Positions 9,322-49,800 of a DNA stretch of 64,000 nt are shown here, one piece after another. The stretch spans positions 1,390,292 through 1,454,291 of the forward strand of contig NW_004450566.1 in assembly GCF_000321225.1 (NCBI RefSeq), in the 5' to 3' direction. The number at the start of each line of letters is the position of its first letter. Positions within the stretch are counted from its first letter, which is position 1. The DNA is from Odobenus rosmarus divergens (lineage: Eukaryota; Chordata; Mammalia; Carnivora; Odobenidae). A program made the translations under genes and the position numbers. The notes under the pieces are model-generated. The model did not search any database and was not told the origin of the DNA. It worked only from the letters and a program-made list of their open reading frames with translations.

Positions 9322-9737
9322 TTAAATTTTTTTATTTTTATTTTTTAAATTTTATTTTATTATGTTACGTTAATCACCATACATTAATTACATCATTAGT
9401 TTTTGATGTAGTGTTCCATGATTCATTGTTTGCGTATAACACCCAGTGCTCCACGCAGAATGTGCCCTCTTTCACCCCCAACCCCTTCCCCTCTAGAACC
9501 CTCAGTTTGTTTCTCAGAGTCCATAGTCTGTCATGGTTCATCTCCCCCTCCGATTTTCCCCCCTTCATTTTTCCCTTCTTACTATCTTTTTTTTTTTTTA
9601 ACATATAATGTATTATTTGTTTCAGAAGTACAGGTCTGTGATTCAGCAGTCTTACACAATTCACAGTGCTCAAAAAAAAACATACCCTCCCCAGTGTCTA
9701 TCACCTAGCCACCCTATCCCTCCCACCAAAAAAAAAT
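9322..9737 (-). mobile_element. L1 3' UTR, antisense, 5'-truncated
   Basis: Reverse complement of the L1 3' end, beginning with its poly-A (T-rich at 9322-9358) and running through the 3' UTR. The first two lattice overwrites (9673-9679, 9730-9736) fall in it. Reading frames at 9147-9608 and 9374-9708 are translations of this UTR, not genes. Confidence 0.9.
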
Positions 9738-10888
9738 AGCCTGGTGGTGTAAAATTCTTAGGCAACTTGCTATGAAGGGGAAATCTCTGCAGTATCCTGA
9801 GGGTCTAAGCATGCCACTTTTCCTCACTAGACTTTTTGGGGAGGCATTTCATGGTAGTTGGGGCTTACAACCAGAATGCCTGGGTTTAAATCCTGGCTTT
9901 GCCTCTCATTAGCTGGTGAATTTAGGCAGATCATTAACTTGTCTGTGCTTCTTCCTTTGTCTGTAAGATGCCAATAATAATCATACTCTTAAGATTAGTT
10001 AATGTATTAAAAAGAAAAAAAATAATGTGTGGCACATAGTAAATACACTGTAGACTTGAGTTATTATTATAAAAAAAAGAGAATAATAGATAAATTGGGG
10101 AACTTTGTTCTCAACAGGGGTGGTACCAGGCCTCGTTTCTCTCCAGGAAACGTCAGGTATTTTTGGAATATTTGTATATCATTTCAAAAAAAATGCAGTC
10201 AGCAGACATAGAGGATTTGATCATATTTAGGAGGAACTTTAAAAAGCATGATTACTTTATGAAAATGATTTACTGAAGATAGTTAACATTATTAAGTCTA
10301 AAAAAATTGTGTGAAAGAAAATCATGGATAGGATTTGGATTGTGAACTAGATTGTGATAACTAATTATTGATTAACTTTTAACATTTCTACTCTGAATTT
10401 TTTTTTTTTTTTTAAAAAAAATTTCTGGTGTAGAATCTTACTTTTATCTAATTCTGTGTTTCTACTAAGTGTATTTTTGCTTAGTTATATCACACATTTT
10501 AAGTAAGAAAGTTGTTTATAAACCCTAAAAAAAAAAGACAAATTATTTGGCAATAGACAAAGATGCAGTCATTGAGTTGAGGAGAAGAAAGTATTTAGGG
10601 CCTACCAGGTAGGCTTGCAGGAGAGGATAGGAGAGGCAGGAAAAAAAAAATGATGAAATTTGGCTCAGCTGGATTGGCAAGGGCTTCTAAAGTGCTTGCT
10701 GATTTCAAGTTCAGGGTAGTAAGCAACCTTTGTGAGTGTCAGAAGAAAGTGGAAGAAAAAAACTGAGACTTATTCAAGAAGAGTTTCATTTCTTCTGTAG
10801 TGGTGCCGCCACATATGGTAACTGCCTTGTGGAGAGGGGATGAAGACAAGCTGGGATTGTGTGGTAAACAAAAAAAATTTGGATTCTT
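9738..10888. other. Unique-looking non-coding DNA with lattice marks
   Basis: AT-rich, no recognised repeat. From 10072 to 10870 every second lattice slot is occupied. Confidence 0.5.
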
Positions 10889-11085
10889 TTTTTTTTGGTT
10901 TTAGAGGTAGAATTTAGTGATTCATCAGTTACATATAACACCCAGTGCTCATTACATCAAGTGCCCTCCTTAATGTCCATCACCCAGTTACCCCATCCCC
11001 CCACCCACCTCCCCTCCATCAATCCTTGGTTTGTTTCCTAAAAAAAAGGGTCTCTTATGGTTTTTCTCCCTCTCAATTTTTCAAT
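10889..11085 (-). mobile_element. L1 3' UTR fragment, antisense
   Basis: Same L1 3' UTR block as 5130-5311 and 5640-5670 (GTAGAATTTAGTGATTCATC, then ATTACATCAAGTGCCCTCCT). Its lattice run at 11041-11047 stands exactly where related copies read TAGTTAA, a direct view of a seven-base overwrite. Confidence 0.88.
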
Positions 11086-13277
11086 TTGGATTCTATGAAA
11101 AAAAGAGTACAATTAGTGTAGTTTGTGTCCTAAAGTTCCTAATGCACAGGTCAAAAAAAAATTGCATTCAAAACAAGTGACTGAGTATTTTACAATGTGG
11201 TTGAATCTCTAAAAAAAAAGAAGATTGTAGTTTCCAGGTCCTATCCTAAAGAGTAGTTTAATCCTTTGAAAAAAAAAAAACAAGAGGCCAACCAGAAACT
11301 TCTATTCACAATTTTTCCTTTATAGTTCATTAAAACCTCTCATCTTTCTCTTTTGTGATACATCTGTAGTTCTGTAAATATAAAAAAAAATTTTGGAATG
11401 AGATGGAAGCAAGAGGTGCATCTCTAATTAAGACAGTCAGTGTGAGATGGCTGGTACGTACGCACTGAGGAAGAAAAATGCTACATTACACAAAGAAATC
11501 TTCTGTGTCATATACTGTGCTCAGACCCCCTTTGCAAAATGCTCTTCTATTGTAAAAAAATTTGTAAGAGTCTTCTACAGTGGAGAATCTATGCTAGAAA
11601 CATATAATGGAAAAAAATGTTTTCATACCTTTGCTTCAGGCTTGGGTTTATATTCTTTAGGATCTCTCGTTTTAGGAACTAGTCTGAGGCAACCAGACCC
11701 TTGCTGCTGCCACTCCTGGAGAGAAAAAAAAAAAGGAAATAGAGTTACACAATGTGAAAAGGGAATTTAAGGAGACCAACAAAAAAAAAGCTACTTTAAT
11801 ACCTACCTTCCTTCCTTCCTTCCTTCCTTCCTTCCTTCAAAAAAACCTTCCTTCTTTCCTTCTTTCCTTCCTTTTTAAGATCTGCAACCATTTAGAAAAA
11901 AATGGAACCCTAACAGGAAGACAAGAGAAAGACTGCTTTGGTGGAAGCATGATGAGGCAGCGCTTTATCTTCTTCCTGGTTGTGATTCTGGGAAAAATAA
12001 TTTGAAAACTGATTAATTATATTTAAGAACAAAACCCAGATGTTTAAACAACTTGCTTCCATTTCAAAAAAAAACTCCTAGGACAATGTGAGTGTGCTTA
12101 AAACTCTTCTGGTAATGGGGAAGTTCTTGATATGGATTGCCAAATCTAGCCATTGAAGTTTTAAATTTTCTTTTATTTCTCACTTGCTTTTAAATTACCT
12201 AAATATTAAGTTTGAATATGGTAGCAAAGTTATATGAGTCAATTTTGTTACATGAGTCAGTTTTGTTACCCACCTTTCTTTATAATTTAATATAAGATGA
12301 TATGTATTGTGCACATGGTTCTAAAAGTCTGGTGGATTTAAATTGATACACTTTAAGAAAAACCAAAAGCTTTTTATTTTCTAAGGCAAACCTTTATTGC
12401 ACAACTGCAAAAAAAATACATTAGTTGAAGGTTTATAAATTAATGTACCAAAAATTGAAGATTTAAAAAAAACTTAAAAAATCCTAAATTTCTGAAAAAA
12501 AAATTTAGAGCTTCCTATACCAAAGCTATTTTCTGTTTCTTTTCTATGCTCTAAAGAAGAACATAAATCTGTAATTAGTAAAAAAATGTGTATATAGTAG
12601 CATTACATTATCATGAAATATTTGCCTACTCTAGAAAGCTCTTGTTCCTCTAGAGGGCAATGCTTCACTTTTACATCACTAACCTAGGGAGAAAAAAAAA
12701 ACATCTTTCTTTCTTAAGAGACTAGAAATGTTTCATTCTGCTCGTTCTCTCTCTTTAAAAATATATTGTATAGTTGAGAGATTTAACATGACATGCTTTT
12801 AAACAAAAAAAAAAAAATAATTAGAACTTCCATAAACTAATATTTGATTTGGAATTTTAGGGAAGATTTCTTTGGCTTTCCTTCTTTATTTTCTAAGAAA
12901 ACACAGAAAGAGCTTGACCTAAAAAAAAATTTTAGTTATAATTGAGTTCTCTTTTTCTGCAAGATAAACTTTCTTTCCCTCTTAAAAAACATTTTGATTT
13001 AAGGTTCTGGATTGACCACTTGACTTGCTAAAAAACAGAACAAGACAAAAACAAAAAACCAAAATAAGAACCAAAAGAACTTTCTTCTTTGTTCTACTTT
13101 TCTATTTGTATTTTTCATGCTACTTTAAATTTAATACTATTTCTCTTTTAAAAAAACCTTCTTGTTTTGTGGTAGTTTCACAAAATAAATAGATTTGATA
13201 AGGAAATAAAGGTCTTCTCCATCCCTTACAGCCTACTTTTATCCTATCTTCTTTAAAAGCAAAAAAAAAAATATTAG
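11086..13277. other. Unique-looking non-coding DNA with lattice marks
   Basis: AT-rich. Frames at 11447-11770 and 11754-12005 owe several lysines to lattice As and show no domain. A separate native A9 at 12495-12503 is off phase. Confidence 0.5.
11806..11875. repeat. (CCTT)n microsatellite broken by a lattice mark
   Basis: CCTT repeats run from about 11806 to 11875. The seven As at 11839-11845 interrupt the tract exactly on the 57-bp phase. Confidence 0.9.
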
Positions 13278-13866
13278 TGTGGTAGGCAGAACTCCAAGAT
13301 GGTCCCTAAGATTTCTGGCCAAAAAAATACATACATTCCTTCACCCTATTATTCAAACACTAATCCAGATACTGCTGAAAAAAAATTCTGCAGATATAAT
13401 TAAGATGTCAAACAGTTAATAAATCTTAGGGAGATTATCTGGGTGGGTCAGACCTAATCATATGAGTCCTTTAAATATGTGTTTAGAGATCAAAAAAAAG
13501 TCAGACAGACTTGAAATGTTTGAGGGATTGAATTCGAGAGAGGTTCTCCATTGGTGGTTTGAGATAGAGGCGGCTGTAGTGCAAGGACCTGAGAGTGGCC
13601 TCTGGAAAAAAAGACTGGTCTCCGGTTGATAGTGAGCAAGAAAACCAGGACCTCAGTCCTACAATCACAAGAAACTAAATTCTGGAAGTAGACCCTGAGC
13701 TCAGATGAGAATGAAGCCCAAAAAAAATCTTGATTTTAATTTTGTGTAGGGGACCAGTCAAGCTGTGTATATACTTAAAAAAAACAGAAGTGTAGGATAA
13801 TAAATGAGTGTTGTTTAAAGGCTCTAAGTTTGTGTTAATTTGTTTTGCAGCAGTATTAAACTAATA
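13278..13866 (+). mobile_element. Ancient LTR-like interspersed repeat (MaLR/ERVL type, probable)
   Basis: Starts with GTGTGGTAGGCAGAACTCCA and ends with AATAAATGAGTGTTG...TTTGCAGCAGTATTAAACTA, resembling old mammalian LTR elements carrying an AATAAA near the 3' end. Diverged, non-coding, with many lattice overwrites. Family not certain. Confidence 0.55.
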
Positions 13867-14429
13867 AAATCAAGGTAAGTAAATACCTTTAAAAAAATAG
13901 AGAGTTAACTTGAAAACTGAAAACTCTCATATGATCTGATACTGAAAAAAAAAAGTCAACATTTGGGTATTTGCCTGTTATAGTGGTGGCCAATATCCAT
14001 GCTCAAAAAAACCTGGTAACATTCCTTATTGGGTTGACCTCATGCCTAACTTCAGAGGTGAGACTCAGTTAGCTCAAGTCATTTAGAGTGTATCACCCGA
14101 AGATAGCACATGTGATCTAAACTAGTCCAATAAGAGTAAAACTGAGGAAGATTTTGGTGGGAATACCAGGGCACATACTGTCCTTTCTTTTCTGAACTTG
14201 GTGATGTATTGAGGTTTACAGGTATTGATGCTCCAAGGGAGATCTTGAAGTTTCTCAGAGCCTGTCATATACAGCTTGAAGATTAAACCAGAAAGCACAA
14301 AGCTAAGAAAAGGATTCTGGTTTTGCTTGAGACTTGGATCAAGCTGAAAAAAAATATAAATCTACTCCATGACTGTTCAGTTATATGGGCCAATAAAGCT
14401 TTCCCTTCCTTTAAGAATTTTTTTGTTTG
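13867..14429 (+). repeat. Possible ancient interspersed repeat
   Basis: Text such as GACCTCATGCCTAACTTCAG and the ending TATGGGCCAATAAAGCTTTC resembles an old mammalian LTR or DNA-element relic with an AATAAA signal. I cannot name the family. Confidence 0.35.
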
Positions 14430-14586
14430 AGGGTGTCTGGGTGGCTCAGTCACCCAGTGACTGACTGACTGACTCTTGAGTGTCTGACTCTTGATCTCAA
14501 CTCAGGCCTTGTTCTCAAAAAAAAGAGTTCAAAGCCCCATGTTGGGCTCCATGCTGGGCATGGAGTTTATCTAAAAAAAAAAAGAG
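14430..14586 (+). mobile_element. Can-SINE, sense, short
   Basis: Head GGGTGTCTGGGTGGCTCAGT followed by a small GACT expansion. The lattice run at 14518-14524 stands where SINE relatives read a seven-base GGGTCGT-like block. Flanked by AAGAATTTTTTT-type direct repeats. Confidence 0.88.
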
Positions 14587-16147
14587 AAGAATTTTTTTCT
14601 TTAAGCATTGAGTTGTTGTTTCTTATAACTGAAAAAAACCAAACTGATAGGTCAGTCATTATCTTATTAATTTTCATAATAGCTTTCTTCATCTTTTCAT
14701 AGAATATATTCTAGACTAGTAATCTCTTATCATCTAGACATATTTAAAAAAATCTTTGTCTAGACTTTTAGGTCTAGAAAAAATTATAATAAAATATTAC
14801 AAAAAAAAAGTTTTACATTATCCGATTGGCAGTTCAGGAAAATAGGTATTTTGGCTTATATAACATTTCTATCATAACACATGTTTGAAGAATATTAATT
14901 CATTATTGGCTTTGCCAAAAAAATGTCCTTTTAGAAATGATGTCGATAAAGTAGAACCAATTCTGTTTAGAGGTTTTCTTTCAAGCTAATAAAAATGCAA
15001 ACCATACAATTCTCATTGATTGCCATTATAATTGCCTATAATTCTGTTGGCAGAAACATGTTGAAGATAGTTGTACATGAAAAAAACAAAAAAATTTGTC
15101 TTACTTAAAGATGAAAATAATTGGTTTATATTGCTAAAGTTAGTAAAAAAAACTTCTAATAACAATCTTATTAGAAGTGAATAGATTCTATGATATAAAA
15201 TAAAAAAATGAAGAATAATAGTTCCTTTTTAATAATTTGACTCAATTTTTGTGAAGTTAAAAAAATATTTTTCAGCTTTTTAAAATCTCTGATTTGTTTT
15301 GCTTTAAGTTTGCTTTAATAATTTAAAGTACCTTTGAAATGTGTGTTTTAAATATATGTATGTGTGTTTTGAAAAAAAAGTGGGTTTTTGTTTGTTTGTT
15401 TACTTGCTTCTTATGCTTTAAGGTCTTTTCTTTTGCTTGCAGGCATTATTTTGCCAGAATGTAGTTGTGACAACTGACCTTATTAGTCTTAAGCCTTTCC
15501 TACCTGAGCTAACCCTTCCCTGAGAGTATCTTAGATATTAGTATCTTAGCAGGTAGAATTGACTCAAATAGAGCATAGCAAAAAAAAATTTCCAGTTCTA
15601 AAAAAAATTAAAAGCAATTTTTGGGTGAATAAAATGTACATGAGGTATTTCACATATAAAAAAAATTTCTTAAGGAAAGGCCATGAAGGGAATTTCTAGC
15701 ATAAGAGATACATATTTTTATTATATGAATTTCAAAATGAAATTTGGCTATTCTTATAAAATAAACTGAAATACAAGTTAAGTGGAGAAGGGTTTATTAC
15801 TGATATAGGAATTAGGAGGAGCCAAATAAAAAAAATTTCTTTTTAATCACAAAGATGGATGTATAGAGGAAGACTTAATTTCAAGAAAAAAAATAGGGTG
15901 AATTGGAGTGGCACGGTTGAGGGTGGAGCCTCTGCAAACATCCCTGAGGTAATGGATTTGATTAAAGACATGGCAAGAAAGGCAGAGGGGCAGAAGGGAA
16001 AAAAAATAATGTGTGTCTTTCAGATCAGGGAAATTGCATGAAGTGATAAAAATCCAAAAAAAAGAACAAAACATGTTAGGTATTTATTGTGGTCAGAGAA
16101 CAAGAATCATTGGCCAAGGTAATGGATCAAATAATGAGATGGATTTT
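14587..16147. other. Unique-looking non-coding DNA with lattice marks
   Basis: AT-rich; holds copy 2 of the 66-bp repeat. A native A7 at 15080-15086 and A9 at 15580-15588 are off phase. Confidence 0.5.
15240..15305 (+). repeat. 66-bp direct repeat, copy 2 (carries a lattice overwrite)
   Basis: Identical to 8493-8558 except at 15259-15265, where TTTGTTG of copy 1 reads as seven A. The repeat keeps its length, so bases were replaced. Confidence 0.9.
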
Positions 16148-16545
16148 GTATTAGCTTGCTAGAGCTGCCATAACAAAATGCCAGAGACTTGGTGTCTTAA
16201 ATAATAGACATTTATTTTCCCACAGTTAAAAAAACTAGAATTATGAGATCAAGGTATCAGCAGGGCTGCTTCTTCTGAGAGTCTAAAAAAAGCTTTCTTC
16301 TTCCAGTGTCTTCACATGGTCTTCCTTCTGTGTGTGTCTTTGTCCTATTTTCTTCATATAAGGACACCAGTCATATTGGATTAAGGTCCACCCATATGAC
16401 CTCATTTTATCTTGATCATCTCTTTACAGGCCCTACTCCCAATACAGTCACATTCAAAAAAACTAAGGGTGAGGACTGTTGAAAATATGAACTTGTGGTG
16501 GGAGGGGATACAAAAAAAACCATAATAGACATGTTTATTTCAAGT
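16148..16545 (-). mobile_element. MLT1-like LTR (ERVL-MaLR), antisense, solo
   Basis: Plus strand reads as the complement of an MLT1-type LTR: TAGAGCTGCCATAACAAAAT, then CACATGGTCTTCCTTCTGTG, then AAGGACACCAGTCATATTGG. No internal region; diverged and non-coding. Lattice runs replace several blocks. Confidence 0.8.
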
Positions 16546-17112
16546 TGACTATGAACTTAGCCTAATATGTTGGCCGTGGGAACAGAAGGGAACAGATTAG
16601 CCAATAAAAATAAGAATCATTAAGATAAAAAAATTAGAATGCAGGATAGATGTATCTTTTTAAAACTTTTAAAAAAAGGAAAAAAAAAAATTTGAACAGG
16701 AAAATATATTTGAACCTGTTACTTTTGAGGCAATGAAGGAAAAAAAATTGTTCCATAGATAAATGGTATTGGAGGCCTGGAGAAATGGATCTAGGCAGAT
16801 TTAAACAAAGGGCCTCCTAAGGAACATTATACTTTCATTTCTTCTAGCCTCACAGTGAACGTTCAGGAATATGCTGGAGCTATTAACGCCAGCTCGCTTG
16901 CATAGCAAGTAAGCACAGAGAAGAATCATTTGAGGTAGTAATGAGCATGGCAAGGCCAAACTACTCACAAAAAAAGGAACTCTTTCTTGTACTCTTTGTT
17001 TTTATGGGGACTTGGGGGTATGGGAAAAAAAATCCTTTATCTGTGTTATTGCTCACCTTGTGTCACTTTCTGTAAATTTCCAAAAAAAATGATGGTTAGA
17101 TTTTATATTTCT

Positions 17113-17290
17113 TATTTTTTTTTAAGAGAGAGAGGTGGAGAGGGGCAGAGGAAGAGGGAGAGAGAGATTCTTAAGCAGTCTTTAAGGCCAGCATGGAAAA
17201 AAATGTGGGGCTCGATCCCACAACCCTGAGATGATGACCTGAGCTGAAATCAAGTCAGACACTTAACTGATTAAGCCACCCAGGTGCCCC
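17113..17290 (-). mobile_element. Can-SINE, antisense
   Basis: Begins with the T-rich tail and ends with CCACCCAGGTGCCCC. Lattice As at 17197-17203 replace the GCCC of the usual GGAGCCCAATGTGGGG block with no length change, a clear case of overwriting. Confidence 0.92.
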
Positions 17291-20200
17291 TCTTACATTT
17301 TTCTATTGGCAAAAAAATAATCAACATCTCATAATCCCGTGTAACAAACATGACAGGCTTGATATTAAAAAAAAATAGGAGTCATTCATTTAAGCAAACA
17401 CTCACCAAGTGTCAAATGGTACCCATTTGAAGAGTACTCTTTGGTAGGTAATAGTGTAAGAATATGAGCTGTCAATGGAAAAAAAAAAAAAAAAGAAAAA
17501 GAAAATTTAGCTCCATGGGATGACTTCACTGAGGAGTGGTGTGAAATGTCTCAGAAGGCACGAAAATATCTGGGATTGTGGAGTGCCACCTAAACTAAGA
17601 GAGTAAAAATCATGAAATACTGGCCAAAGAAAAATTAAGAGGATTTGGCAAGAAAAAAATCACTGATGTTTTTAAGACAATACTTTCTTGTGTGATAAGG
17701 ATGGGGATGAAAAAAAGGGTTGCAGTCAGTATATGTTGAGATGGAGAGGTGTTGTAACTAGTGAGGAAAAAAACAGTTTTATCCTTCACAAAATTTATCA
17801 TGATCTTTTCTAAGATGTCTAACATGCTCATTTGTTTTTTATAGCTTACCAAACATTTTGAACTACCCTTGTATTTCAGTAAAAAAAAGCTCGTATTTTA
17901 AATAATATTTAATGATCAAATTATGATTAAACCAAAAACTGCAGTTGTGCTTTTCATTGGTTACTTCAAAATTCCGTGCTTGGGTAAGCAGAGAGAACAT
18001 AGGAATCCTTATAGTCTCAATCCATGTCTAAGTTTTTTGGCTCTAAGCCTTATTCAAATCTGTTTCCAGGACTTTGGGGCTAAACATTTAATCCATGTTT
18101 ATTTCCTTAAAAAAATGGCAGTATAAATTTTAAGGTAGAATCAGTTCAGATGGAAAGGACCAGGGAAAAAAATGGGATTACTACCCCAAGAGTAGTGAAG
18201 TAGGGCCATGGTCTGCAAGAGAGGGGAGACCCAGGTACTAAGACTTGATCACCACGGGGAGGGCTTTCTCTAGCTGAGGATGATGCCAGAGGGCCTGGTT
18301 GTATGGCACCTTTTCTTTCATGAGAACAGAATAATTAAAAAAATAGATTATTTAAAAAAAACTAATATCTGATTCTGTTGTACTGCAAAGTGTTTTCAGT
18401 GGAATTATTTTCCTTCTTTTAATTTTTACTTTTATATTTTAGTTATTAGTAAAAAAATTGTGGAATGTGCCAGGCACTGTTTTACATACTTGGTGAACAA
18501 CTATGAAAATCTCTACCAGACTAGAGCTTACACTTCAGCAGGGAAGAAAAATGATAATTAATAATATAATAATACTAATTTAATATAATACAGTGTTATC
18601 ATATTAATTAACATGATTAATTATTTAATTTTTTATAGAGAGAGTTAATAAGTAAAATAATGTAGTCTGCTAGAAGGTAAAAAAAGCCGTCACCTTCTTT
18701 GTTCACAAAAAGGTGAACTTTATTTTTCTAGATATAAACCTTGATTTGGAACACTATGTTGGCAAATAAAATATATGGTATAAAGTTAAAGCAGCCCATT
18801 TTATAAGCATGAGCAATTGAAACCTCGTGATGCTCTTCAATGTTTATATTTACTCCTTACAAACAATTGGTTTTCAAATTCAGTAACCTTCTTCCAAATA
18901 ATGTAGAAAAAAACTATTAGTTTGTCTTTTTAAATTACCAAGTCATTTGCCCAACTTTCTAGTTAACCTGAACCTCTGTTTCATGAGATCTTTGGACACT
19001 GAGGCCTGCTGGAAGGTTCAGGGTGCTTTTGAATACTCACCAGGATATAATTCTCTCTTCACCTGACAAGAGATGGGGCAGATAAAGTGCCTTTCTTTTT
19101 TCCCCTGGAGTCATGGTACAGCAGAACCTTTACAATTCTGCCCTAAGAGAAAATTGTTGCCTGTGCAAAAAGAGAAGTAAAAGGAAACAAAAAAAAAAAT
19201 GCAAGTCTTAAATTTCTCTCCTTCTTTCTCTCTGGAGTCTATGTATGCATGTTATTTGAAATATTGCTGTTAGAAAAAAAACAAAAACCCTGATTCCTAG
19301 TGTCCTGATTGGGAAAATGAATGTACAATTCTCAATCCGTCAATTCCATAAAGCTGAAATCCAAAAAAACAGATGTATTTTAGAACTCAGAATTTTTTAC
19401 CATGTAGAAAGTGATATAAAAAAAAAACTAGATACTTGTTTTGCAGTGCTCTTCATTTAAAGTTTCTAACCCCAATTCTTGACTTTAATACTATTATTGG
19501 TGGCTTATTAACCTTACTTACTTGGGGTTTCTAATTCTTCAAATGCTATTAATTTAGCAAATGCAGTTAATATTTAATTACTGAGTCAAGAAAAAAAATA
19601 CCTTCTAAACAGATAGTGGAACACAACTCAGCATTACTAGGATATGTAAAAAAATGTATTTTTATGTATGGAATATGTTTATATATAGTGTATATATATG
19701 TATGAAAAAAACTCAGTTTATAAATGTCCTGAAAGGCTTAGATGTATTTTAGATGTAACAAGCTGAGTGGGTTAAGTAGGGGAAATCAATGATTATCTAC
19801 TTAATTTATTTAAAAAATAAAAAAAGTTTTGGTAAACAATAAAAAATGAGTTTTTTTCCCGCAGATTCAATTACAAAAAAAAAAAAGTCAATACATTTAC
19901 TCTTTTACTCCTTAGAGTTTGTGCAGTTAAGAGTAAAAAAATCATGTATGCAAGCAAGTTTTGAGAGCAGTAGTAATTTTTTAGACTAGAAGAGGCTAGG
20001 TCCTCATTTACCTAATGTTTGGCTCCTTTGCTTAGAACTTCATACTAAAAAAATCTAACCACTGAATGTTCATGTTTGCTAATAAACTTTTAGCCTTTAA
20101 ACTGAGATTTGTCTCTGATCATCAGAGAAGTTTCCAGATGTTGCCTTATCATAAAAGTTGAAAAAAAGCAAGTTTTCAGAAAATATATCTCCTCCACCAA

Positions 20201-22424: not shown

Positions 22425-22675
22425 ATATCCTCTCTCCCCAAAAAAAACTTTTAATCTTTATGTCAAAATTTTAAATATACTGAGATTAATATGCCATAAA
22501 AAAATTAAATTTTATATTACTTAAAATATATATAATTAGTATATTTAAAGTATGAAAAAAATCAGTTCCTCAGATTATTTTAAAATTTAGAACAATTTTA
22601 AGCTGTACTTGAAAAAAAGTTCTCCCAGAATAATTTAGATTCCAAAACAAAATTCCTCAGGTTCATTTAAAAAAA
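22425..22675 (+). repeat. ~240-bp duplicated segment, copy 1
   Basis: Aligns with 23970-24210 from TCTCTCCCCA to CAAAATTCCTCAGG with a few differences and an internal indel near 22600. Lattice runs in the two copies are offset by 2-4 bases but the spacing of the native blocks is unchanged, which again shows replacement. Family not recognised. Confidence 0.85.
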
Positions 22676-23100: not shown

Positions 23101-23969
23101 AGTTTTAAATTACACTCATAATACAAGAATATAGTCACAGAAAAGATTTAGATAGTACCCATGTAGGTTCTCTTTTTTCTGAAAAAAAATGCCCATCCCC
23201 TACTGATTTTTAACCATGGTCACCAGATTTGTGTATAAATTTCCTGACACTTTTCTTTGCATTAACATATGTGTTAGGCTTTTGAGTGTGGGACTTTTCC
23301 CATTGCTCTGGACTAGGGAACAAAACGAAGGACATATTGGACAGCCGGTATCTGATATTCTAAAGGGAACTGGAGTGTGACAGTCCCTATAGTGCTCAAA
23401 CCAGAACTGCAATTCCTAACACATACCAGACCCTCCTTTTAGCTCTATGCCCTTCCAGTGTATATAAAAAAAATCTAGGGAGGGAGGACATATATATGAA
23501 TATATCTGGAGAGAGAGAGAGAGAAAAAAAATATTTGGCTTCCAAGTGAATTGCTTATAGAGAAGACAAATTCCTGGCAGAACAGTTGGCTTGCAGCTGA
23601 CTGGCTGATTTACTGCATCCTATTTGAGCAGGGGGAAGACAATGGGCGGACAGGGGGCTGTAGGAGTCACCCTGTATTCCTGTGGTTTGATGTGAAAAAA
23701 ATCTGTGAACATTCTGTGGGGCAACTGGATACCATGGTGGGTGGATGGGCTAAAAAAACCCCTTCAATACCTCATTAGAGGGTGGTCTGCTGGTTGAGGA
23801 AACTGCTGTGACATTCAGCACTCAGGTAGTGAGGGAACCCACTTGATATAAGTGCCCTGTGCTAGAGGGGCAGGGTATGGGGCCAGAGAGGAGGGGGAGC
23901 TGGAAGAAGGTAGAACCACCCTAGACCTCCTAAGATCAGGACCTACCACCTTTATTGAATTATCCTCTC
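23101..23969. other. Unique-looking non-coding DNA between duplicate copies
   Basis: Less AT-rich than its surroundings. The 75-residue frame at 23551-23778 contains lattice residues at its end and no known domain. Confidence 0.45.
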
Positions 23970-24210
23970 TCCCCACTGAAAAAAAATAATCTTTATGTCA
24001 AAATTTTAAATATACTGAGATTAATATACCATGTAAAAAAAAAATTTTATATTATTTAAAATATACTATAATTAATATATTTAAAGTATGCTAAAAAAAA
24101 GTTCCTCAGATTATTTTAAAATTTTAAACAATTTTAAACTAACTTGCCCATTTGTTTTCCTAGATGAATTTAGGTTCCAAAACAAAATTCCTCAGGGTTC
24201 ATTTGAGTTT
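23970..24210 (+). repeat. ~240-bp duplicated segment, copy 2
   Basis: Second copy of 22425-22675, in the same orientation about 1.5 kb downstream. The match stops near the GGGTTCATTT at 24195-24205 and leads into the minisatellite-like stretch. Confidence 0.85.
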
Positions 24211-24369
24211 TCACTGACAGTGAGAAACTTGGCTCCCATTATAATTGCCATATCTTTGTTGTTTGTTTGTTCACTCCCTCTGGACATAACCAATGTCTCT
24301 TTCTATGTGGATGCCTTGCTCACCACATCCATGTTCCAACACTCCAGGCCGGGTCTTAGTATCCAGAAC

Positions 24370-24930
24370 TGAGGGGGCAAAAAAAGTACCCCTCAAACCC
24401 CCATGCTCAGGCAACACCTCCTATCAACCTCACCTAAAAAAACTCAGGCTCAGAACCCCTGTGCCTGATTGCTACCCCTTTTGCCCTCCTCAAAAAAAAA
24501 GGTAGTCTGATCTCCATACCAGGCCACTACTCTTGTATAGATGTCCTCAAAAAAAAACAGGCTCAGACCCTCTACAGGGATACCCTCCTCACTCTGCCTG
24601 GGCTCTGACACTCCATGCCAGGGCATTCTTTACCCAGCTAGGGCTCTGAGTTTGGTGGATGCTCCCTTTACTCTCTTTGGGCTCTGATTCTTCATACTGG
24701 GCTGCCATAATCCATGTATTCCTTCCTCACCCTGCTTTGGCTCTGATATCCTACCTTGGGTTGAACCTCCTGTAGGAACCCCTGGTGTCACCCCAGCTTC
24801 TGACTCCCTCTCCCAGGTCACGCACTTACTTCACTCAGGTACTGAGTTGCCTGAACAGCCCTCCTACCTGGACACCTCCCTCACCCTGCTTGGGTTTTGC
24901 ACCTAGATGCCTGTCTTGTTCTGCCCCACA
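24370..24930 (+). repeat. Degenerate minisatellite-like tandem repeat
   Basis: Diverged units of about 55-60 bp share phrases such as CCTCCTCACCCTGC, GGGCTCTGA and CTCCATGCCAGG. About nine or ten units can be followed, GC-richer than the surroundings. Frames at 24293-24505 and 24630-24821 are translations of it. Confidence 0.65.
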
Positions 24931-26749
24931 TAATAATGGTCTGAATTGAAAAAAAAAGAAAGAGGAAAGGAGAAGGGAAAGGGCTATATTTGATTTTTGT
25001 ATTTTCTTTTCTTCCAAATATATTTATTAAATGCAGTTAAAAGGCAAATAAGATAAAGTTACAAAAAAATAGAGGTTTACCTCTAGAAGTGGGGATAAAC
25101 ATGTAAAGATATTATTACCAAAAAAAATGATAATACAGAGCTTTTTCCTAGGATGCTGTGGTGGCAGGTTGGAAGTAAAAAAATCCTGCATAGCAGAGGA
25201 ATTTGGGGGATTTTGATGAGGGTTTAGTCTTTAAAAAAAAGGGGAATCTAAACAGGTAAGAAGGAAGCCAGGGCAGGTTGATGAGCCCACAAAAAAATTT
25301 ACATCAGACTCTTTAGAAATTTAAGTAAGCATCATATTAAAAGTGTTAAAAAAACTAGGAAAATACAAGTAGATTTTATTTATTTAAAAAGCCTTTATTA
25401 ATGAAAAAAAACTCATTACATGAGGAGTTGGGACCTTCTCTGACTTTTTGCAAAACAAGGAAATTAGTTTAAAAATGAGTTCATGCTGCTTTAAGGGCCT
25501 GAAAACTGCCTGAATATGAATTACTAGAAGTACAAAAAAGAATTTTAAATGAAGCCCTAAATATTTTATAATGGGAAAAAAAAATTTATGCTTGGAGGAA
25601 GCATGACAAACTTCTGAATAAAAAGGAAAGGAAAATTATTCTTTATTTATAGAATGCTCTTCTTTTTCTTTTTAATTTAAAACAAAATCAGTAAAGAATA
25701 TTACTAAAGGGGGTTTTCCCCACTGTGGTATCCTTGAGCTTACCTCTGTGACCATGTTATATAGCCAAGAGGTTTGGCTTGGGAAGGACATCATTCACTA
25801 GGTAAAAAAATCATGTTTGGATATGAGAGGCTGATGTGTCTGAGGAGAGGCCTAAAAACGGGACTAGACATTCTATCCCTAGAGGATTTGGGGGGAATAC
25901 ATGGTTAGTTCTCTTAAAAAAAAATTCCTATGCACCTTAATTTGGATATGTATATTTTTCCTGAAAGAAAACTTAATGCATAAAATAACTTATTAAAATC
26001 AAAATTAGATGAATTATGGAAGGTTTTCCTAGCATGAGAAAACAGAATTACTTCCAATAGTGATTTTGTGATTTTGCAAGGCTGAACATAGCTGGTTTAT
26101 AGAATGCATTCTGTTTTCATTTCTTTTCAGAATACCATTGGAAGTAAAAAAAAGTGTGGGGTGAAACAGGCAGTTTTGGTGGTCCCGATCTGTTGGAAAG
26201 GCCCAGGTGGTGGTCTTAAGTATCTGTGGTGGTTGAGGCCCAGGGCTGCCATTCATAAAAAAAAAAATCTTGAGCTAGTTACTTAACATCTCTCAATCTC
26301 AGTTTCATCATGTACAAAAAAAAAATAATAATGTTGAGAAAAATTATGTCCTTTCCCCATAGCATGTTATGTTAAAAAAAGATTACTAGACTCAATGAAC
26401 TGTATGTATGATCCAATTTCTCCACACACAAAAAAAACCCAAATAACTTTATTTTTAAAGAAATCACTATTAATGCACCTACTTCTTAAAAAAAAGTAAT
26501 TTCAGAATTAAGATAATTTTACCTTTGCAAAATGTAAAGAATAAAACTTCCTACAAACTGACATATTAAAAAAAAAGAAAACAAAACTTGCGTTTTACCT
26601 CCTCAGTACTTAGGATTCACAGGAGTAGAGATAATATTTTCATCTGTAATGTAATGTTGATTACATAGTGAAAAATAGCCATGTTGGTCAGTAATAGATT
26701 TGCCTGAAAATGATGAAAAAAATACATAATATTATTTTTTAAAATTTTT
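24931..26749. other. Unique-looking non-coding DNA with lattice marks
   Basis: AT-rich, no recognised repeat. Short opposing frames at 26029-26286 overlap on both strands and have no coding features. Confidence 0.45.
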
Positions 26750-32313: not shown

Positions 32314-34468
32314 GTAGGTAGCAATTTATTTTTGATACATTAAAAAATACTGTAATACTCATGCAATTCTTTACAATTTTTCTCTGTGGTGCCAAAGAGT
32401 CCAAAACTGTCCTGAGGAAGGAAGCATATTACTTCCCTTGCCCTCCCCCCAGTTTTCTGTTTAAATCCTGCTAAAAAAAAGTTTGAGTGGAAAATCATTC
32501 CATTGCCAGTTGGCGACTTATATGACTCTAAAAAAAGAAAGCTATTTAAGCACTTTGAAATCTGCTTAGATTTTCATAGCTGTGTGAAAAAAACAACACC
32601 AGTGTTCCTGGAAAACACTGGGAGGCATGCCATCCTCCCTGACATACTCTCAAATATGACATAAGTTTCATGTCATGGATGCCAGCATAACACAAGAACT
32701 CAAAGGAGAGCCTTAACTCCATCTTGTGAGCTTCCTGACATAAATCTGAGGGGGTACAAAAAAAACTATTACTAGCACACATTAATTAAGCACTAACTGT
32801 AGTGCTAGGGATTGAAAAAAACCTTTAAGTGATTTTTAAATTTAATCCTCACAACTGCCTTCTCAGGGAATTGCTGTTATTATCCCACTTTATGAATGAA
32901 GAAGCTATGAGTTAAGAAGTTAAGTCATAAAAAAAAGATCACATGGCTTGTTAGAATTGTGACTAAATCATATGTGTGTTTGACTAAAAAAACCGGTGTT
33001 AACCCATATGCTGTGACGACTATATATGAGTTTTCACGTATATAAGGAACCATACTATATTGTTGCTGAGACTTGGCTCATGGTTAAAAAAGATGTATAA
33101 AAAAAAGATATGAGTGATATATAGGACTTATCTCTTTAAGTTAAAAAAAAACCCACTTCATTTAATATTATTTTTCTGCTATCAACTAGAGATTGCCTTT
33201 ACATTCTAAAAAGAAATATAACTTCAATATTGAGATTTATGTGGCATCATTGGAGCATAGCATTAGGGGAAAAAAGAATATCTTTAAATCATTTTGATGG
33301 GAAATAGCATAACGAGCAGATGTAATGATGCTAGGAGTGAGGAAATGGATCTTATACTGTGATTCAACTTTGACTCATATTATGAAAAAAAAGAACAACT
33401 CAGTGGTTTAATAGTTTTGATATCTTTTCCTTGAAATGAAGATATGAATAAATATAACATTGTGCTTAAGTGTGTAAGATATGAATTTCCTTTCTGAAAA
33501 AAAAAAACCAGCAACTAGATTGTAGGCTCATAACATCTAAGTTACTCACGTGTGCTGCCCAATTTGGACTTCTCTGTGGACAGGGGAAAAGACCATTTCT
33601 TTTCACAAAGGGAGGAGGGAAGGCTAAGCTTGCCCATGTTGTATACTGGTCTTCAGCTTATGCCTTCTTCATGCCTGACTGGGTACTCATTCTGAGAGCT
33701 CAGAGCTCAGCTTTGAGTTTGGTTTCCAGTTTGACTCTTTTTCCAGACCATTCAGCCAACTTGGCTCTATGCTTAGACTATGTTTGCTACACTCCTCACC
33801 CTTGCCCACCAGTCTGATTTGGGGTATTGCCTTTTACCCCAAAAAAAGAGCAAAACTGCACACAACATTACAAGTGCATGTCTGGCATTCTTGCTTTAAA
33901 AAAAAGCTACTCTTAACCCAAAGCTTAGTGCTTGTCTAAGAGTCAAGTGTTAGAAAAAAAACTAAAAAGTCACTATAAAGGAAAATTTTTAAAAATATTA
34001 TTAGTATTAAAAAAAAAAAGTACTTAATCACAGATGATACTTATTTATATTATTTTTAAAAGAATTTGAAAAAAATATATTTATTTCCTCCTTTCTTCCT
34101 TCCTTCCTTCCACCCTTCCTTCCTTAAAAAAATCCTTTACTCCTTCCTAGAAATTTCAGGAAAGTTTGAACTAGAAGAGTATAAAAAAACTTCCACCTAT
34201 CATAGTGGTTAGAAGAGTGTTTATATTAAATTTTTTTTTAAAAAAACTAGCTGGGTAAATGTGAGAAGAACTCTCATAGTGTCTACCTCAAAACCGCTTT
34301 TATAATTGAGGTTTGACAAAAACTATAAAATTTAACAGAAAAATCCTAGTTTGCTTAATTTTTTATAATTTTTATATTTACAAATATTTTTAATATCCAA
34401 GAATTCATAAAAAAAAATATTATCTAATTTATAATTGCTTGTCAATATTGAAAGTATTGAAACTGCCT
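32314..34468. other. Unique-looking non-coding DNA with lattice marks
   Basis: Includes a TTCC simple tract at 34090-34126 that runs into a lattice mark. No other repeat or gene-like feature recognised. Confidence 0.45.
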
Positions 34469-42039: not shown

Positions 42040-43344
42040 TGCAGTATTTTGATTTTTAAAGTAACTATTTCTATTATTCCACTTTTCAGTGCAGAATTAT
42101 AACTGTAATTATACCTAGGTGGGGATAAAATTCTACCTCATTTCCCTAGCCCCAGATGGACTAAAAAAATCAGAGAGATGTGGTTTCGAAAGCTTTTTTA
42201 CTTGAAGAACATTTTAGAGCAGAGCTATGTATACACGCTTGTTAAAGATGTAAATTTTGTACAACCAATCTTAGAAAATTGTTTAGTAAGGTCTTGTAAG
42301 CTTCTATTTCTAAAACATGTTAAATTATTCTTATTTAATTTTTAACTCACGTGACTTCACTTAATTTAAGCCACCTCAAATACATAGTTTAAAAAAAACA
42401 TAGGTTTGTCATCAATGTTTTGTTGTTTCTGGAAACGTTGAGAAAGGAAAAAAAAAGCCAAGTTTTATCTAAACCAAAACAAAGTCTTTTTTTTTTTTTT
42501 TTACAAAAAAATTATCATCTTGAAATTTATTCTCTTTCTAATTGAATTGCTTGGAAAACATAAAAAAATAGTTAATAGCTTAACCTCTGATGTATACATT
42601 ATGCTGTTAATGGAATCTAAAAAAACCTATTTTACAAAAAGAAATTCTTAATTGGCTAGAAAAACCCAACTTGTGAAAAAAATGTTGCCTGATCTGAAGT
42701 AATAAAGTGTTGAAATGTACTAGGGCCTACAAAAAAAAATGCAAAGAAACTGTCAGGTACTTCTTTTCTCTACTGAGATTGTGAGGCTCGGGTTTTATTT
42801 TTGAAATAAACTTTTCTTGTAAAAAGAATAGGGAAATATAAAGATGAAAAAAACTACTATATTTGATTAAATCTAAGATGCTATGGATTATAAATTTCAC
42901 TATAAAAAAACGCACTTCTAAGTAAAAAAAGCATTACCAAATAAACCATGACATACCCTAGTTTGAAATTCTCATCCTAATTTTGAATTGTTAAAATGTG
43001 AAAAAAGTCATTGTAAAAAAAAAAAGATACTACATTTTTATACAATCTCCTAATCCAAACTTTGAGACTTATCTCATTAAGATTGTTTGACTCTTTGGTT
43101 AAAGCTTAACTTAACAGAAATGCATGCATGATGAAATTAGAAATCCTTTTAATTTTTTTAAACTGAAAATTTAGTTTGCTTGATGATTTTAAAGTGAGAG
43201 AAAGTTTAAATGTCTTGTGCCCTTAAAAGAATTAGCTGGTAAATGCCTATTGACTATTCAAAGTGAGAGACCCACACTAAAGTTGTTAGGAACAAAGTTG
43301 GAAAAAAAATAGGAACATTCATTTTAAAAAGTTAATTCCAAGGA
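42040..43344. other. Unique-looking non-coding DNA with lattice marks
   Basis: AT-rich, with a T18 tract at 42485-42502. No recognised repeat. Confidence 0.45.
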
Positions 43345-43545
43345 AGGGTGCCTGGGTGGTGCAGTAGGTTAAGCATCAGACTCTTGGTTTAACTTAGCTT
43401 GTGATCTCAGAGTTGGGGAATCAGTCTCACGTTGTCAGGATCCATGCTCAACGTGAGTCAGCTTGCGAGTCTCTCTTCCTCTCCCTCTGTGCCTCTACTT
43501 GTGTGCACGCTCTCTCTCAAATAAATACCTAAAAAAATTTTAAAA
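43345..43545 (+). mobile_element. Can-SINE, sense, diverged
   Basis: Head GGGTGCCTGGGTGGTGCAGT and tail CTCAAATAAATACC. Flanked by AAAGTTAATTCCAAGGA and AAAGTTAATTCAAAGGA, its target duplication. Confidence 0.92.
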
Positions 43546-44084
43546 AAGTTAATTCAAAGGAGAGGCAAAAAGGCCCTCTAGATAGTTGGTGGATAGCTAA
43601 GAAGAAAATGGTATCTTGAATGGTTTATCAGTTCTCTTTTGGAAAAAAAAAGAGATGATAAGGAGGTATTAGCAGCTATATTTCATGTTCCATAGGCAGA
43701 CTAACCTCACTAATCTAAAATTGAGAGAGCCCTGAACTAGTTTGTGGATTAAGAAGGTGAAATAGAAAAATATTTTGAATGGTGGAAGGAAATGGCACGT
43801 TACTTAATTGGGATATGAGTTTTTGTCTCTTTCAAATCTTCTTTTAATTATTTCCTTTTCAAGAGCTTTACAAAAAAAAGTCATGTCTATTTACAATATT
43901 TGTGTACTGGAGTAAATAATTTTGACAGTTTATGATGTAATTTGAAGCTTTTTCCACTTGGTGGCTACAGTGATTAAAGTTCTGATAAAAAAAATTTTGA
44001 GAACCTTATTTAATTTAAAATTAAGATTTAATTATCAAAACTATGTTAAAAATCTTTATTATGCCTGTTTCTATTTTTCTTTTT

Positions 44085-44262
44085 TAAAAAAGATTTGAGA
44101 AAAAAAAAGAGAGAGGAGGATTGGGGTGGGGGGTCAGAGGGAGAGGGAGAGGCCAACAAAAAAATGAGCAGGGAGCCTGACTCTAGGCTCCATCCCAGGA
44201 CACTGGGATCATGACCTGAGCTGAAGGCAGATGTTTAACTGACTGAGCCACCCAGGTGCCCC
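44085..44262 (-). mobile_element. Can-SINE, antisense
   Basis: Antisense copy ending CCACCCAGGTGCCCC. The lattice run near 44158-44167 replaces the CTCCCCGC-like block of its relatives at equal length. Confidence 0.92.
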
Positions 44263-45052
44263 TTATTCTTGAAAAAAATTTTCTGAACATATTATCACTA
44301 TTGGCATCAAGTAGCTCATATTACATTCTTGGAACCACACTTTAGGGAACTTTTTTGAATTTGGGGTTTTTAAATATTAGAATATTTTCTTTCCATGTAG
44401 TTTGAGAGTTGAATTGAATCAAATTGCTGAAAGTAGCTAATATATAGTTTTGGTTTTAAATAATTTATGAATTTTCAGTTTTAATATTGTGAGCAAAAAA
44501 TATTCCACCTAATATTTTGACTTGGGAAATGGATGAAAACATTATTCAAGTGTGCTAAAAAAAGTAATATCATCTCTTTTGCTTGTTTCCTTTTAATAAG
44601 AGCATATTTATCTAAAAAAAAAATATAATTTTATAGAATAAACTCTGAAGGAAAAGCATCATGTTAATCTGATGTAAAGTCAAGTCCTTTCTCAATGTAG
44701 CTCTAAAAATGTATTAAATACTACATCTTAAACCTTGTCTTATATATTACCATTATGTGTATTATTATCAGTATGCATCACATTAAAAAAATTTCATGAT
44801 ATATTTTTCATGGCATGTTTTCAGTCATATATTGCTCTAAGAAAAAAAACAGTTTATTTTTTTTATTGCTAAGCTTAAAAAGCTTCCTTTTTCTGGAAAA
44901 AAAAATGTGACTATTATGAAGTTATAGGATTTATTGTTTTCAATAATAGCATTTATATTTATGTGAGATTCATATATTACTGACAATTAAAACAAAGGCC
45001 TTGTCTCCAGTGAACTTAAAATAAGATACATATATATATATTTTATACAGTT
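44263..45052. other. Unique-looking non-coding DNA
   Basis: AT-rich flank of the L1 insertion; only lattice marks noted. Confidence 0.45.
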
Positions 45053-45064
45053 AAGATTTCTTTC

Positions 45065-45950
45065 AATCAGAGGAAAAGATGGCGAAGGAGTAAGGGACCC
45101 TATTCCAACCAGTCCCCAGAATTGAGCTGGATATCTACCAGACCACTCTGAACACCGACAAAATCAGCCTGAGATATAAGAGGATATATCTTGATCTCTA
45201 CAAACAGAATATCGCAGGCAGTTGGTTTTGAGGTATGAAGAAAAAAACCATGATTCTGTGGGCATATATCCAGAGATGAAGGGGGAGAGAGCTGAGCCAT
45301 CAGTATCCTGTACGGCTGGGGAACGATAGCCTCCTGTGCTGGGGACAGGGCACAAACTCACAGACGGGTACGGCAGGGAAAGGACTTTAGGGCAGCCCCC
45401 TGGACTGAAACCTGGAGCCGTGGGTCCATGCATGGGAATTGGGGGCGGCTGGCAGTTTTAGAAGCCCAAAGGGCACAAATGTGCCCTGACCTGGAGGCAA
45501 GGACTGGGAGTACCGCTAAGCGGTGCGCAACCCAGGAAGCTGCAGTTTTTAGCAGCATAGACAGAAACAGAGATAGTGTGGCCTGGAGAGCTCACTGAAG
45601 AACAGACTGCAATTTCTCTGTTCTGAGGCAGAGGGTTGGAAACGATCTCTTCTGCTCGGACTCTAGGAAGAGACCCGGAAAGCTGCCAGAGAACAAAAGG
45701 CCCGCAAAACCGGTTCTCACTGAGCCCATCCCCCCCCACAGGGGGCAGGGCAACTCTGCCCAAACATGGTTGCCTGAGTAACAGCGCAGCAGGCCCCTCC
45801 TCCCAGAAGAAAGGCTGGGAGAACAAGAGGCCGACAACCCTAAGTCCCCATAAAACAGGTGCATCTTGCTTGGGTTGTGGTCAGTAATTTGGACTCTGTA
45901 CATTCCCTCAACCACCCCTCAAGAAAAAAAATAGGAGGAGGAACCCCCAA
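45065..45950 (+). promoter_or_regulatory. L1 5' UTR (internal promoter region)
   Basis: About 0.9 kb, clearly GC-richer than the surroundings, between the 5' target duplication and ORF1. In L1 this part carries the internal promoter. The motif AAGATGGCG at 45076-45084 is of the YY1-binding type known near L1 starts; use here is inferred from the family. Confidence 0.7.
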
Positions 45951-45961
45951 AATGGGAAAGA

Positions 45962-46815
45962 TTCAGAGACTGTGACTTCTGCCACAGATTTACAAATGGA
46001 TACAGATAGAACCAAGATGTTGGAAATGGAATTCAGGGTAGCAATTGTGAAGACAATAGCTAGAATGGAGAAATCAATTAATGGCAACAGAGATTAAAAA
46101 AAGGCAGAAATGAAAACTGAACTGGCAGAACTTAAAAATGCTATCAATGAGAAAAAAAATAATCTAGATAATCTAACAGCTAGGGTAAGCGAGGCAGAAG
46201 AACGAATTAAAAAAAAAGAAGACCAATTGATAGAAAATAAGGGAAAAGAGGAGGCTGGGGAAAAACAACTCAGAATCCATGAAAACAGAATCAGAGAAAG
46301 AAGTGACACCATGAAACGTTCCAAAAAAAAAATTATTGGGATCCCTGAAGGGGTGGAGAGAGAGAGAGGACTTGAAGATAAAAAAAAGCAAATCATGCTA
46401 AGAACTTCCCTAATCTGGGAATGAAACAAACATTCGTAAAAAAAAGGCAGAGAGGACCCCTCACAAGATCAAGGAAAATAGGCCAATGTTCCGGCATATA
46501 ATAGTAAAACTCACAAATCTTAGAACCAAGGAAACCATCTTAAGGGCAGTTAGGGGGAAGAGATTCCTTACATACAGAAGGAGGAACATCAGAATAACGT
46601 CAGACCTATCCACAGAGACCTGACAAGCTAGAAAGGCTGGCAAGACATATTCAGGGTACTAAAAGAAAAAAACATGCAGCCAAGAATACGTTATCCAGCA
46701 AGGATGTCATTTAGAATGGATGAAAAAAAGCAGAGCTTCCAAGACCAGCAGAAACTGAAAGAATATGTGACCACTAAGCAAAAAAAGCAAGAAATATTAA
46801 GGGGGGTTCTATAAA
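45962..46815 (+). pseudogene. L1 ORF1 (nucleic-acid chaperone), broken
   Basis: ORF1p is the trimeric RNA-binding chaperone of the L1 particle. One frame runs from about 45962 (reading DSETVTSATDLQMDT) to a stop at 46422-46424. It includes a coiled-coil-like Glu/Lys/Leu-rich stretch (about 46110-46300) and the block IIGIPEGVERERGLE. The single internal stop, TAA at 46095-46097, is formed from lattice As, so it is not evidence of decay. After 46424 matches to the RNA-binding and C-terminal parts continue in other frames (RPMFRHIIVKLTN; NMQPRIRYPARMSF; LKEYVTTKQ), ending near 46813. Real frameshifts and lattice damage cannot be fully separated here. Confidence 0.8.
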
Positions 46816-46894
46816 AGGAGAAAGACCCCAAGAGTGAAAAAAAACAGAAATTTACAGGGACAATCTATAGAAACAAGGTTTTCACAGGCAACAA

Positions 46895-49800
46895 AAAAAA
46901 AATAAATTCATATCTTTCAATAATCACTCTCAATGTGAACGGCCTAAATCAAAAAAAAAAATGGCACAGGGTTGCAGATTGGATAAAAAGACAGGACCCA
47001 TCCATATGCTGCCTACAAGAGACTCATTTTGAACCTAAAGATACATCCAGACTGAAAGTGAAGGAAAAAAAATCCATCTTCCATGCCAACGGACCTCAAA
47101 AGAAAGCTGGAATAGCAATTCAAAAAAAAGACAAATTAGATTTTAAGCTAAAGACTGTAGTTAGAGACACAGAAGGACACTATATCATTCTTAAATGGTC
47201 TATCCAACAAGAAGATCTAACAATTGTAAATAGCTATGCCCCCAACAAGGGAGGAGGCATCTACATAAGCCAATTGTGAACCAAAATAAAGAGTCATATT
47301 GTTAACAATACGTTAATTGTAGGAGACCTCAATACTCCACTCTCAGCAATAGACAGATCATCTAAGCAGAAAATCAACAAAGAAACAAGAGCTTTGAATG
47401 AAACACAAAAAAAGATGGACCTCATAGATACATACAGAACATTCCACCCTAAAACAGAATACTCATTCTTCTCGAGTGCACATGAAACTTTCTGCAGAAT
47501 AGATCACATGCTGGGTCCCAAATCAGGTCTCAACCGATAACAAAAGATTGAGATTATTCCCTGCATATTCTCAGACCATAATGCTTTAAAACGAACTCAG
47601 TCACAAGAAAACATTTGAAAGAAATTCAAACACTTGGAAGCTAAAGACCGCTCTGCTCAAGAATGTTTGGGTCAACCAAGAAATCAAAGAAAAAAAAAAA
47701 CAATTCATGGAAACCAATGAGAATGAAAACACATCGGTCCAAAACCTAAAAAAAACTGCAAAGGCAGTCCTAAGGGGGAAATACATAGCCATCCAAGCCT
47801 CATTCAAAAAAATANNNNNNNNNNNNNNNNNNNNNNNNNNNNNNNNNNNNNNNNNNNNNNNNNNGGGAAATACATAGCCATCCAAGCCTCATTCAAAAAA
47901 ATAGAAAAATCCCGAATTCACCAACTAACTTTACACCTTAAAGAACTAGAGAAAAAGCAACAAATGATGCCTAAGCCATGCATTAGAAGAGAAATAATTG
48001 AGATTAGAGCAGAGATCAATGAATTAGAAACCAGAAACACAGTAGATCAGATCAACAAAACTAGAAGCTGGTTCTTTGAAAGAATTAATAAGATCGATAA
48101 ATCACTGGCCAGACTTATCCAAAAGAAAAGAGAAAGGACTGAAATTAATAAAATTATGAATGAATGGGGGGAGATCACGACTAACACCAAGGAAATAGAA
48201 ACAATTATTAGAAATTATTACCAACAACTATATGCTAATAAATTAAGCAACCTGGAAGAAATTGATGCCTTCCTGGAAACCTATAAACTGCCAAGACTGA
48301 AACAGGCCAATAACATGAATAGGCCAATAACCAGTAACGAGATTGAAGCAGTGATCAAAAACCTTCCAAAAAACAAGAGTCCAGGGCCTGATGGATTCCC
48401 TGGGGAATTCTACCAAACATTCAAGGGAGAAATAATACCTATTCTCCTGAAGCTGTTTCAGAAAATAGAAACAGAGGGAAAGCTTCCGGACTCATTCTAT
48501 GAGGCCTGCATTACCTTAATCCCCAAACCAGGCAAAGACCCCGTCCAAAAGGAGAATTTCAGATTGATATCCCTGAAGAATATGGATTCCAAAATTCTCA
48601 ACAAAATCCTAGCTAATAGGATCCAAAAATACATTAAAAGGATCATCCACTACGACCAAGTGGGATTTATCACCAGGATGCAAGGGTGGTTCAACATTTG
48701 CAAATCAATCAGTGTGATAGAACACATTAATAAGAGGAGAGAGAAGAACCATATGGTCCTCTCAATTGATGCAGAAAAAGCATTTGACAAAATACAGCAT
48801 CCTTTCCTGATTCAAACTCTTCAGAGTGTAGGGATAGAGGGAACATTCCTCAAGTTCATAAAATCCATCTATGAAAAACCCACAGCGAATATCATCCTCA
48901 ATAGGGAAAAGATGAGAGCATTTCCTGTAAGATCAGGAGCATGTCAAGGATGCCCACTCTCACCACTATTGTTCAACATAGCACTAGAAGCCCTAGCCTC
49001 AGCAATCAGACAACAAAAAGAAATAAAAGGTATTCAAATTGGCTGAAGAAGTCAAACTCTCTCTCTTTGCAGATGACATGATACTTTATGTGGAAAACCC
49101 AAAAGATTCCACCCCCAAATTACTAGAACTCATACAGCAATTCAGTAACGTGGCAGGATACAAAATCAATGCACAGAAATCAGTTGCTTTCTTATACACT
49201 AACAATGCAACTGTAGAAAGAGAAATTAGAGAATCGATTCCATTTACAATGCACCAAAACCCATAAGATACCTCGGAATAAACCTAACCAAAGAGGTAAA
49301 GGATCTATACTCTAGAAACTATAGAACACTTATGAAAGAAATTGAGGAAGACACAAAGAGACAGAAAAACATTCTATGCTCACAAATTGGATGAATAAAT
49401 ATTGTGAAAATGTCTATGCTGCCCAGAGCAATCTACACATTCAATGCAATCCCTATCAAAATACCATTGACATTTTTCACAGAGCTGGAACAAACAATCC
49501 AAAAATTTGTATGAAATCAGAAAAGACCCCGAATCACCAAGGAAATGTTGAAAAAGAAAAACAAAGCTGGGGGCATCACGTTGCCCGATTTCAAGCTATA
49601 CTACAAAGCAGTGATCACCAAGACAGCATGGTAACTGGCACAAAAACAGACATATAGACCAATGGAACAGAACAGAGAGCCCAGATATGGACCCTCAACT
49701 CTATGGTCAACTAATCTTCGACAAAGTAGGAAAAAATATGCAATGGAAAAAAGACAGTCTCTTCAATAAATGGGGCTGGGAAAATTGGACAGCTATATAC

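Follow-up and report, generated by a model that had tools for sequence, protein, structure and literature searches.

What kind of process could set runs of seven adenines (A7) at an unvarying step of 57 bases across 38 kb of mammalian DNA, through unique sequence and repeats alike? The question is raised by a stretch of Odobenus rosmarus divergens (NCBI RefSeq assembly GCF_000321225.1, contig NW_004450566.1, forward-strand positions 1,390,292 to 1,454,291), which we analyzed at its full length of 64,000 bases (the window) and in which an earlier sequence-only reading had reported such a lattice. We conclude that the lattice is a computer artefact, or else a mark, rather than a biological feature, the biological reading being excluded for practical purposes, and we hold with high confidence that it was written by a digital, stride-based overwrite of the tail of an assembled contig, through a fault or as a mark. 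The class of explanation first proposed, data corruption or a deliberate mark, holds, and N or masked bases stored as A, the specific route suggested, would be one candidate form of it; to it we add that only half of the positions are occupied, that occupancy is associated with local base composition, and that the lattice ends at a contig boundary.

The register of the lattice is exact. Counted cell by cell in the window (a cell being the seven-base slot at 9673 + 57k, filled where it reads AAAAAAA), 332/670 cells from k = 0 to k = 669 are filled, compared with 1/451 same-phase cells of the window outside that range. There is no phase slip anywhere along the lattice, as the sequence-only reading had claimed. 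With 160 kb of flanking DNA added, in-phase A7 occurs in 7 of about 3259 cells beyond the region (the latter figure counted from the range). Inside the region, the signal of A7 at period 57 far exceeds that of every other combination of period (20–399) and homopolymer (4–7), and the window to either side of the region contains no comparable periodic homopolymer over the same range. The cells are exactly seven bases wide, without significant A excess in columns −1 and +7. The assertion that A7 runs begin only at 9673 + 57k is right as to register but needs amending in two respects: only about one cell in two holds a tract, and 110 of the 366 runs of seven or more A in the window begin 1–4 bases ahead of the lattice phase because native A's precede the tract. 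A phase check modulo 57, which had been suggested, is far from flat, with 223 of the 366 runs starting in phase (one of these, at 5341, lies outside the region). Off-lattice runs had been thought about equally dense inside and outside, which is not exact (14 inside vs. 20 outside; 0.37 vs. 0.77 per kb); the six listed do lie inside the region, where 14 exist.

The right-hand limit is slightly less certain. The span had been drawn to 47812, and an in-phase A7 (k = 669, starting at 47806) does stand there, but it is probably native, since a 39-bp repeat across the adjoining N gap holds the same A7 off phase. If so, the last certain forced tract is the one at 47749 (k = 668). Nor is the lattice a tandem repeat or satellite, which is ruled out because the 50-mers of adjacent cells are unrelated, at only 28% identity.

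How the tracts relate to the underlying DNA can be read from related copies of the same repeats. Within the window, the copies have a modal length of seven letters at 19/22 filled cells, and when the comparison is widened to the window plus 200 kb of DNA and eleven further loci from the same genome, this is so at 28/32 testable filled cells (in a few of which masked tracts make up part of the letters counted). Insertion of A7 is rejected, since the copies carry seven native letters at most tested cells; comparison with them shows the tracts to be one-for-one substitutions of seven native bases, adding none. The phase passes without slip through L1, other repeats and microsatellites, as had been reported. 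In the L1 ORF2 endonuclease frame (Table), where the ungapped alignment spans query residues 6–128 and entries labelled LINE-1 ORF2 (e.g., 1vyb_A) match the same range, lysine-rich triplets supplant other residues at the filled cells k = 654, 656 and 657. Among the other repeats are some that we take to be short interspersed elements from familiar repeat families. Two AT-rich direct repeats about 1.5 kb apart (22426–22668 and 23961–24204) are both crossed in the same absolute phase, and a second CCTT-rich microsatellite (34069–34190) is broken by a lattice tract. We also note a likely internal exon of 87 bases (29 codons) on the minus strand at 11629–11715 (coordinates counted by hand), with AG before it and GT after it; it contains cell k = 35, which is unfilled, and tract k = 36 lands on the pyrimidine run of its acceptor site.

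On its right the lattice is bounded by the assembly. In the genome record (2,377,615,816 bases in 2085 sequences) the window is C303:1390292-1454291; the record matches window positions 8173–13500 letter for letter (5328 bases compared), and a comparison over 9673–12000 likewise gives a 100% match. The lattice is confined to a single 50.7-kb contig (scaffold 1387398–1438105), beginning at scaffold base 1399964, which is contig base 12,567, and its right end is the contig end, at a gap of 50 N. The 39-bp overlap around this gap lies inside an L1, and among the five gaps in scaffold 1290292–1514291 it is the only one with such an overlap. No lattice of period 20 to 299 is present in the 160 kb of flanks plus 40 kb of the scaffold start, and none in four 10-kb samples from this and three other scaffolds; together these amount to 240 kb, about 0.01% of the genome, a sample too small to show rarity. 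The unique DNA of window 9673–12000 has no second copy among 44 matches (40 of 3629 candidates scored), Rfam returns 0 matches at the gathering score for the sequence, and phage records give no match to window 9673–17672. The proposal that the lattice was laid down on assembled coordinates is thus borne out: a single phase holds over 38 kb, repeats, microsatellites and L1 codons are crossed, bases are substituted only, and the lattice ends at a contig boundary.

Table. Features of the lattice region, with positions counted from the first base of the window
Feature	Position	Strand	Evidence or remark
Forced A7 lattice, period 57, width 7	9673..47755	+	331/669 cells filled, k = 0..668
Tract in (CCTT)n microsatellite, repeat phase continuing as if 7 bases were replaced	11839..11845	+	Read directly
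GC-rich block, 0.105 of 19 cells filled	44950..46000	+	Occupancy map
L1 ORF2 endonuclease frame, ungapped alignment to solved L1 endonuclease	46905..47273	+	2v0r_A
39-bp contig end, exact repeat past gap at 47865-47903	47776..47814	+	Unmerged contig overlap
In-phase A7, k = 669, probably native	47806..47812	+	Also in copy past gap at 47895
50-N gap ending contig and lattice	47815..47864	.	C303:1438106

The other half of the lattice, 338 of the 670 cells, is empty, and these cells look like native DNA. Their composition and 1-, 2- and 3-mer content are ordinary, on which ground we reject the idea that the content of the slot decided its filling, and their identity to related copies is 80.0% (2492 columns) vs. 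80.2% elsewhere (26299 columns). There is no surplus among them of A runs of 3 or 4 at the cell edge, nor of A-rich cells. As far as can be seen, each cell is either fully overwritten or untouched.

The order of filled and empty cells looks random, resembling coin flips. The series contains 323 runs (336 expected, standard deviation 13), its linear complexity is 338 (335 expected for random bits), and it shows little autocorrelation. No short register generates it, and readings in 7 or 8 bits (at every offset, in both bit orders and inverted) give no string with more than 85% printable letters. No deterministic filling rule emerges from the parity, exclusive-or (XOR) or classifier tests: the largest deviation among simple parity rules is 51 of 335, within the estimated range for so many tests; the largest among two-base XOR rules is 112 vs. 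about 121 expected; and sequence classifiers for cell filling reach a cross-validated area under the curve of at most 0.62.

Cell occupancy is nevertheless associated, at moderate strength, with the composition of the surrounding DNA. In the first test, mean guanine-plus-cytosine (GC) content of the 25 bases on each side is 0.343 for filled vs. 0.375 for empty cells, the most negative difference among 670 circular placements, and the correlation of occupancy with 50-base GC (r = −0.160) lies under all 669 circular shifts. Among cells in unique DNA, the filled fraction is 0.68 (56 cells) where GC lies below 0.25 and 0.24 (33 cells) where it is at least 0.5, with a course between them that is not smooth (0.45 of 121 at 0.25–0.30; 0.60 of 129 at 0.30–0.35). 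Besides the GC-rich block in the Table there is a second, at 23300–25050, with 0.40 of 30 cells filled; the limits of both blocks were chosen after viewing the occupancy map. Outside the two blocks the effect is weaker yet present at 50 bases (r = −0.12, P = 0.003) and fades at 200 bases (P = 0.11). An effect of repeat copies is not separate from that of GC (z = −1.1 vs. −3.6). Resolved into successive rings, the z scores are −2.15 (0–25 bases), −1.4, −0.16, 0.63, −1.86 (200–400) and +2.37 (400–1000), the last being unexplained; resolved by side, the left flank gives z = −3.2 and the right −1.3. Residual correlations between cells are −0.078 and 0.076 at lags 3 and 4.

The mechanism that best explains these observations is a computer routine that stepped by base index through one assembled contig and wrote A (coded as zero in the common 2-bit scheme) into 7 of each 57 bases. 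The overwrite began near contig base 12,567 and continued as far as the contig end, leaving about half of the cells with the overwrite and the rest native. We infer that its input was an unwrapped array with one entry per base, because stepping by bytes through wrapped FASTA would lose phase at every newline and because 57 bases packed at 2 bits each end partway through a byte. The routine probably ran at or before scaffolding. For the half-occupancy, the leading possibility is that every cell was blanked and that the ones with sufficient support from reads were then restored, which would account for the lower occupancy in GC-rich surroundings; alternatively, cells may have been filled by coin flip from the outset.

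Several results weigh against this account. The lattice start at 9673 falls inside the contig, with no visible junction. At 4/32 testable cells the modal copy length is not seven (0, 1, 1 and 6), and a run of five A at the cell edge occurs in seven empty cells vs. 3.6 expected, a slight excess. The largest positive r among the circular shifts is 0.154, so the GC association is of moderate strength, and it resides mainly in the top fifth of GC, where 0.336 of cells are filled vs. 0.50–0.56 in the other four. The residual lag-1 correlation between cells is 0.022 (standard error 0.039), which counts against shared read coverage because shared coverage should make neighboring cells correlate. Finally, the literature, searched by titles and the opening parts of abstracts, yielded no program fault that combines a stride of 57 with a width of 7.

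Within the overwrite, a fault and a deliberate or test mark are about equally likely, and each falls a little short of an even chance. A mark might be a canary or planted test pattern, with cells set by coin flip or by the bits of a message. The parameters 57, 7 and one half look hand-chosen, the filled count, run count and linear complexity are what coin flips would give, and the agreement between window and genome record is also compatible with a plant. Against this stand the lack of text in the 7- and 8-bit readings and the association with local GC, which is unlike a message or a plain coin flip: a content-blind mark should leave cells independent of local DNA, and they are not (r = −0.160). 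A deliberate binary mark of 670 cells, keyed or biased to local base composition and travelling unnoticed in the genome record, we consider unlikely.

The opposite case, placed on a par with the mark, is a fault that arose unintentionally in the pipeline or during transfer, when the sequence was at the contig stage, and in which blanks were stored as A and about half of them were restored by read-based correction. Such a fault fits the stop at the contig end, where the gap is flanked by the unmerged 39-bp overlap; it fits the greater frequency of native cells in GC-rich DNA, which coverage bias could produce; and it fits the all-or-nothing state of the cells, apart from the slight excess of edge runs of five. 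A mail line of 76 base64 characters carries a payload of 57 bytes, and a per-line base64 fault acting on data with one byte per base might give a period of 57 without slip, a lead that leaves the width of seven unaccounted for. The fault likewise leaves the start within the contig unexplained, predicts a neighbor correlation beyond GC that is not seen at lag 1, and has no counterpart in the literature searched.

Readings outside the overwrite fare far worse. Some instruments can report A for cycles that gave no signal, so failed cycles could in principle leave A tracts in reads, but reads start at random and no read-level fault can hold one phase over 38 kb, which makes a sequencing-chemistry artefact very improbable; the single phase excludes it unless every read came from one sequence divided at a constant 57-base interval. 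Phased A tracts for DNA bending or nucleosome placement, though A tracts do bend DNA and disfavor nucleosomes and filled cells are more frequent in AT-rich surroundings, are a negligible prospect given the unbroken phase across L1, microsatellites and other repeats, the overwriting of L1 coding codons and of letters common to repeat copies, the abrupt stop at an assembly gap and the lack of any lattice in the 240 kb sampled beyond the window.

The digital overwrite has practical consequences. Up to 2324 letters (332 × 7) in 38 kb of this record are forced, fewer where the native base was A, and analyses that trust them would accept false variants, A-tract or poly-A signals and lysine codons. 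A search of assemblies for homopolymers locked to one phase costs little and would reveal such faults.

The search of titles and abstract openings found no description of such a lattice, and the nearest known systems each share one aspect of it. Storage in 2-bit code that writes ambiguous or missing bases as A similarly turns blanks into A runs on one strand, whereas the runs here are seven long, recur every 57 bases and occupy half of the cells; we know of no source that blanks sequence in this way. Crafted sequences in the training data of DNA models are, by its abstract, the subject of PMC13308446. Such artificial or poisoned sequence likewise sets nonbiological letters within natural DNA; the abstract describes no assembly lattice, and here occupancy is associated with local GC. 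We also assembled a comparison set of public contigs in which three A7 runs lie 57 bp apart (at least 115 prokaryote and 20 viral stretches) and tested these loci, which are short pieces of contigs, for A or T tracts in 57-base phase. None of the best 25 of the 135 loci resembles the lattice: 23 have units 0.63–0.98 alike over at most 798 bp, and the remaining two, L014 and L021, hold just 4 and 3 tracts, set in dissimilar DNA, numbers small enough to arise by chance. Tandem repeats whose unit is 57 bp share the A7 spacing of the lattice, but their units are alike and extend over no more than 798 bp, whereas the lattice holds its phase over 38 kb of DNA in which neighboring units are 28% identical.

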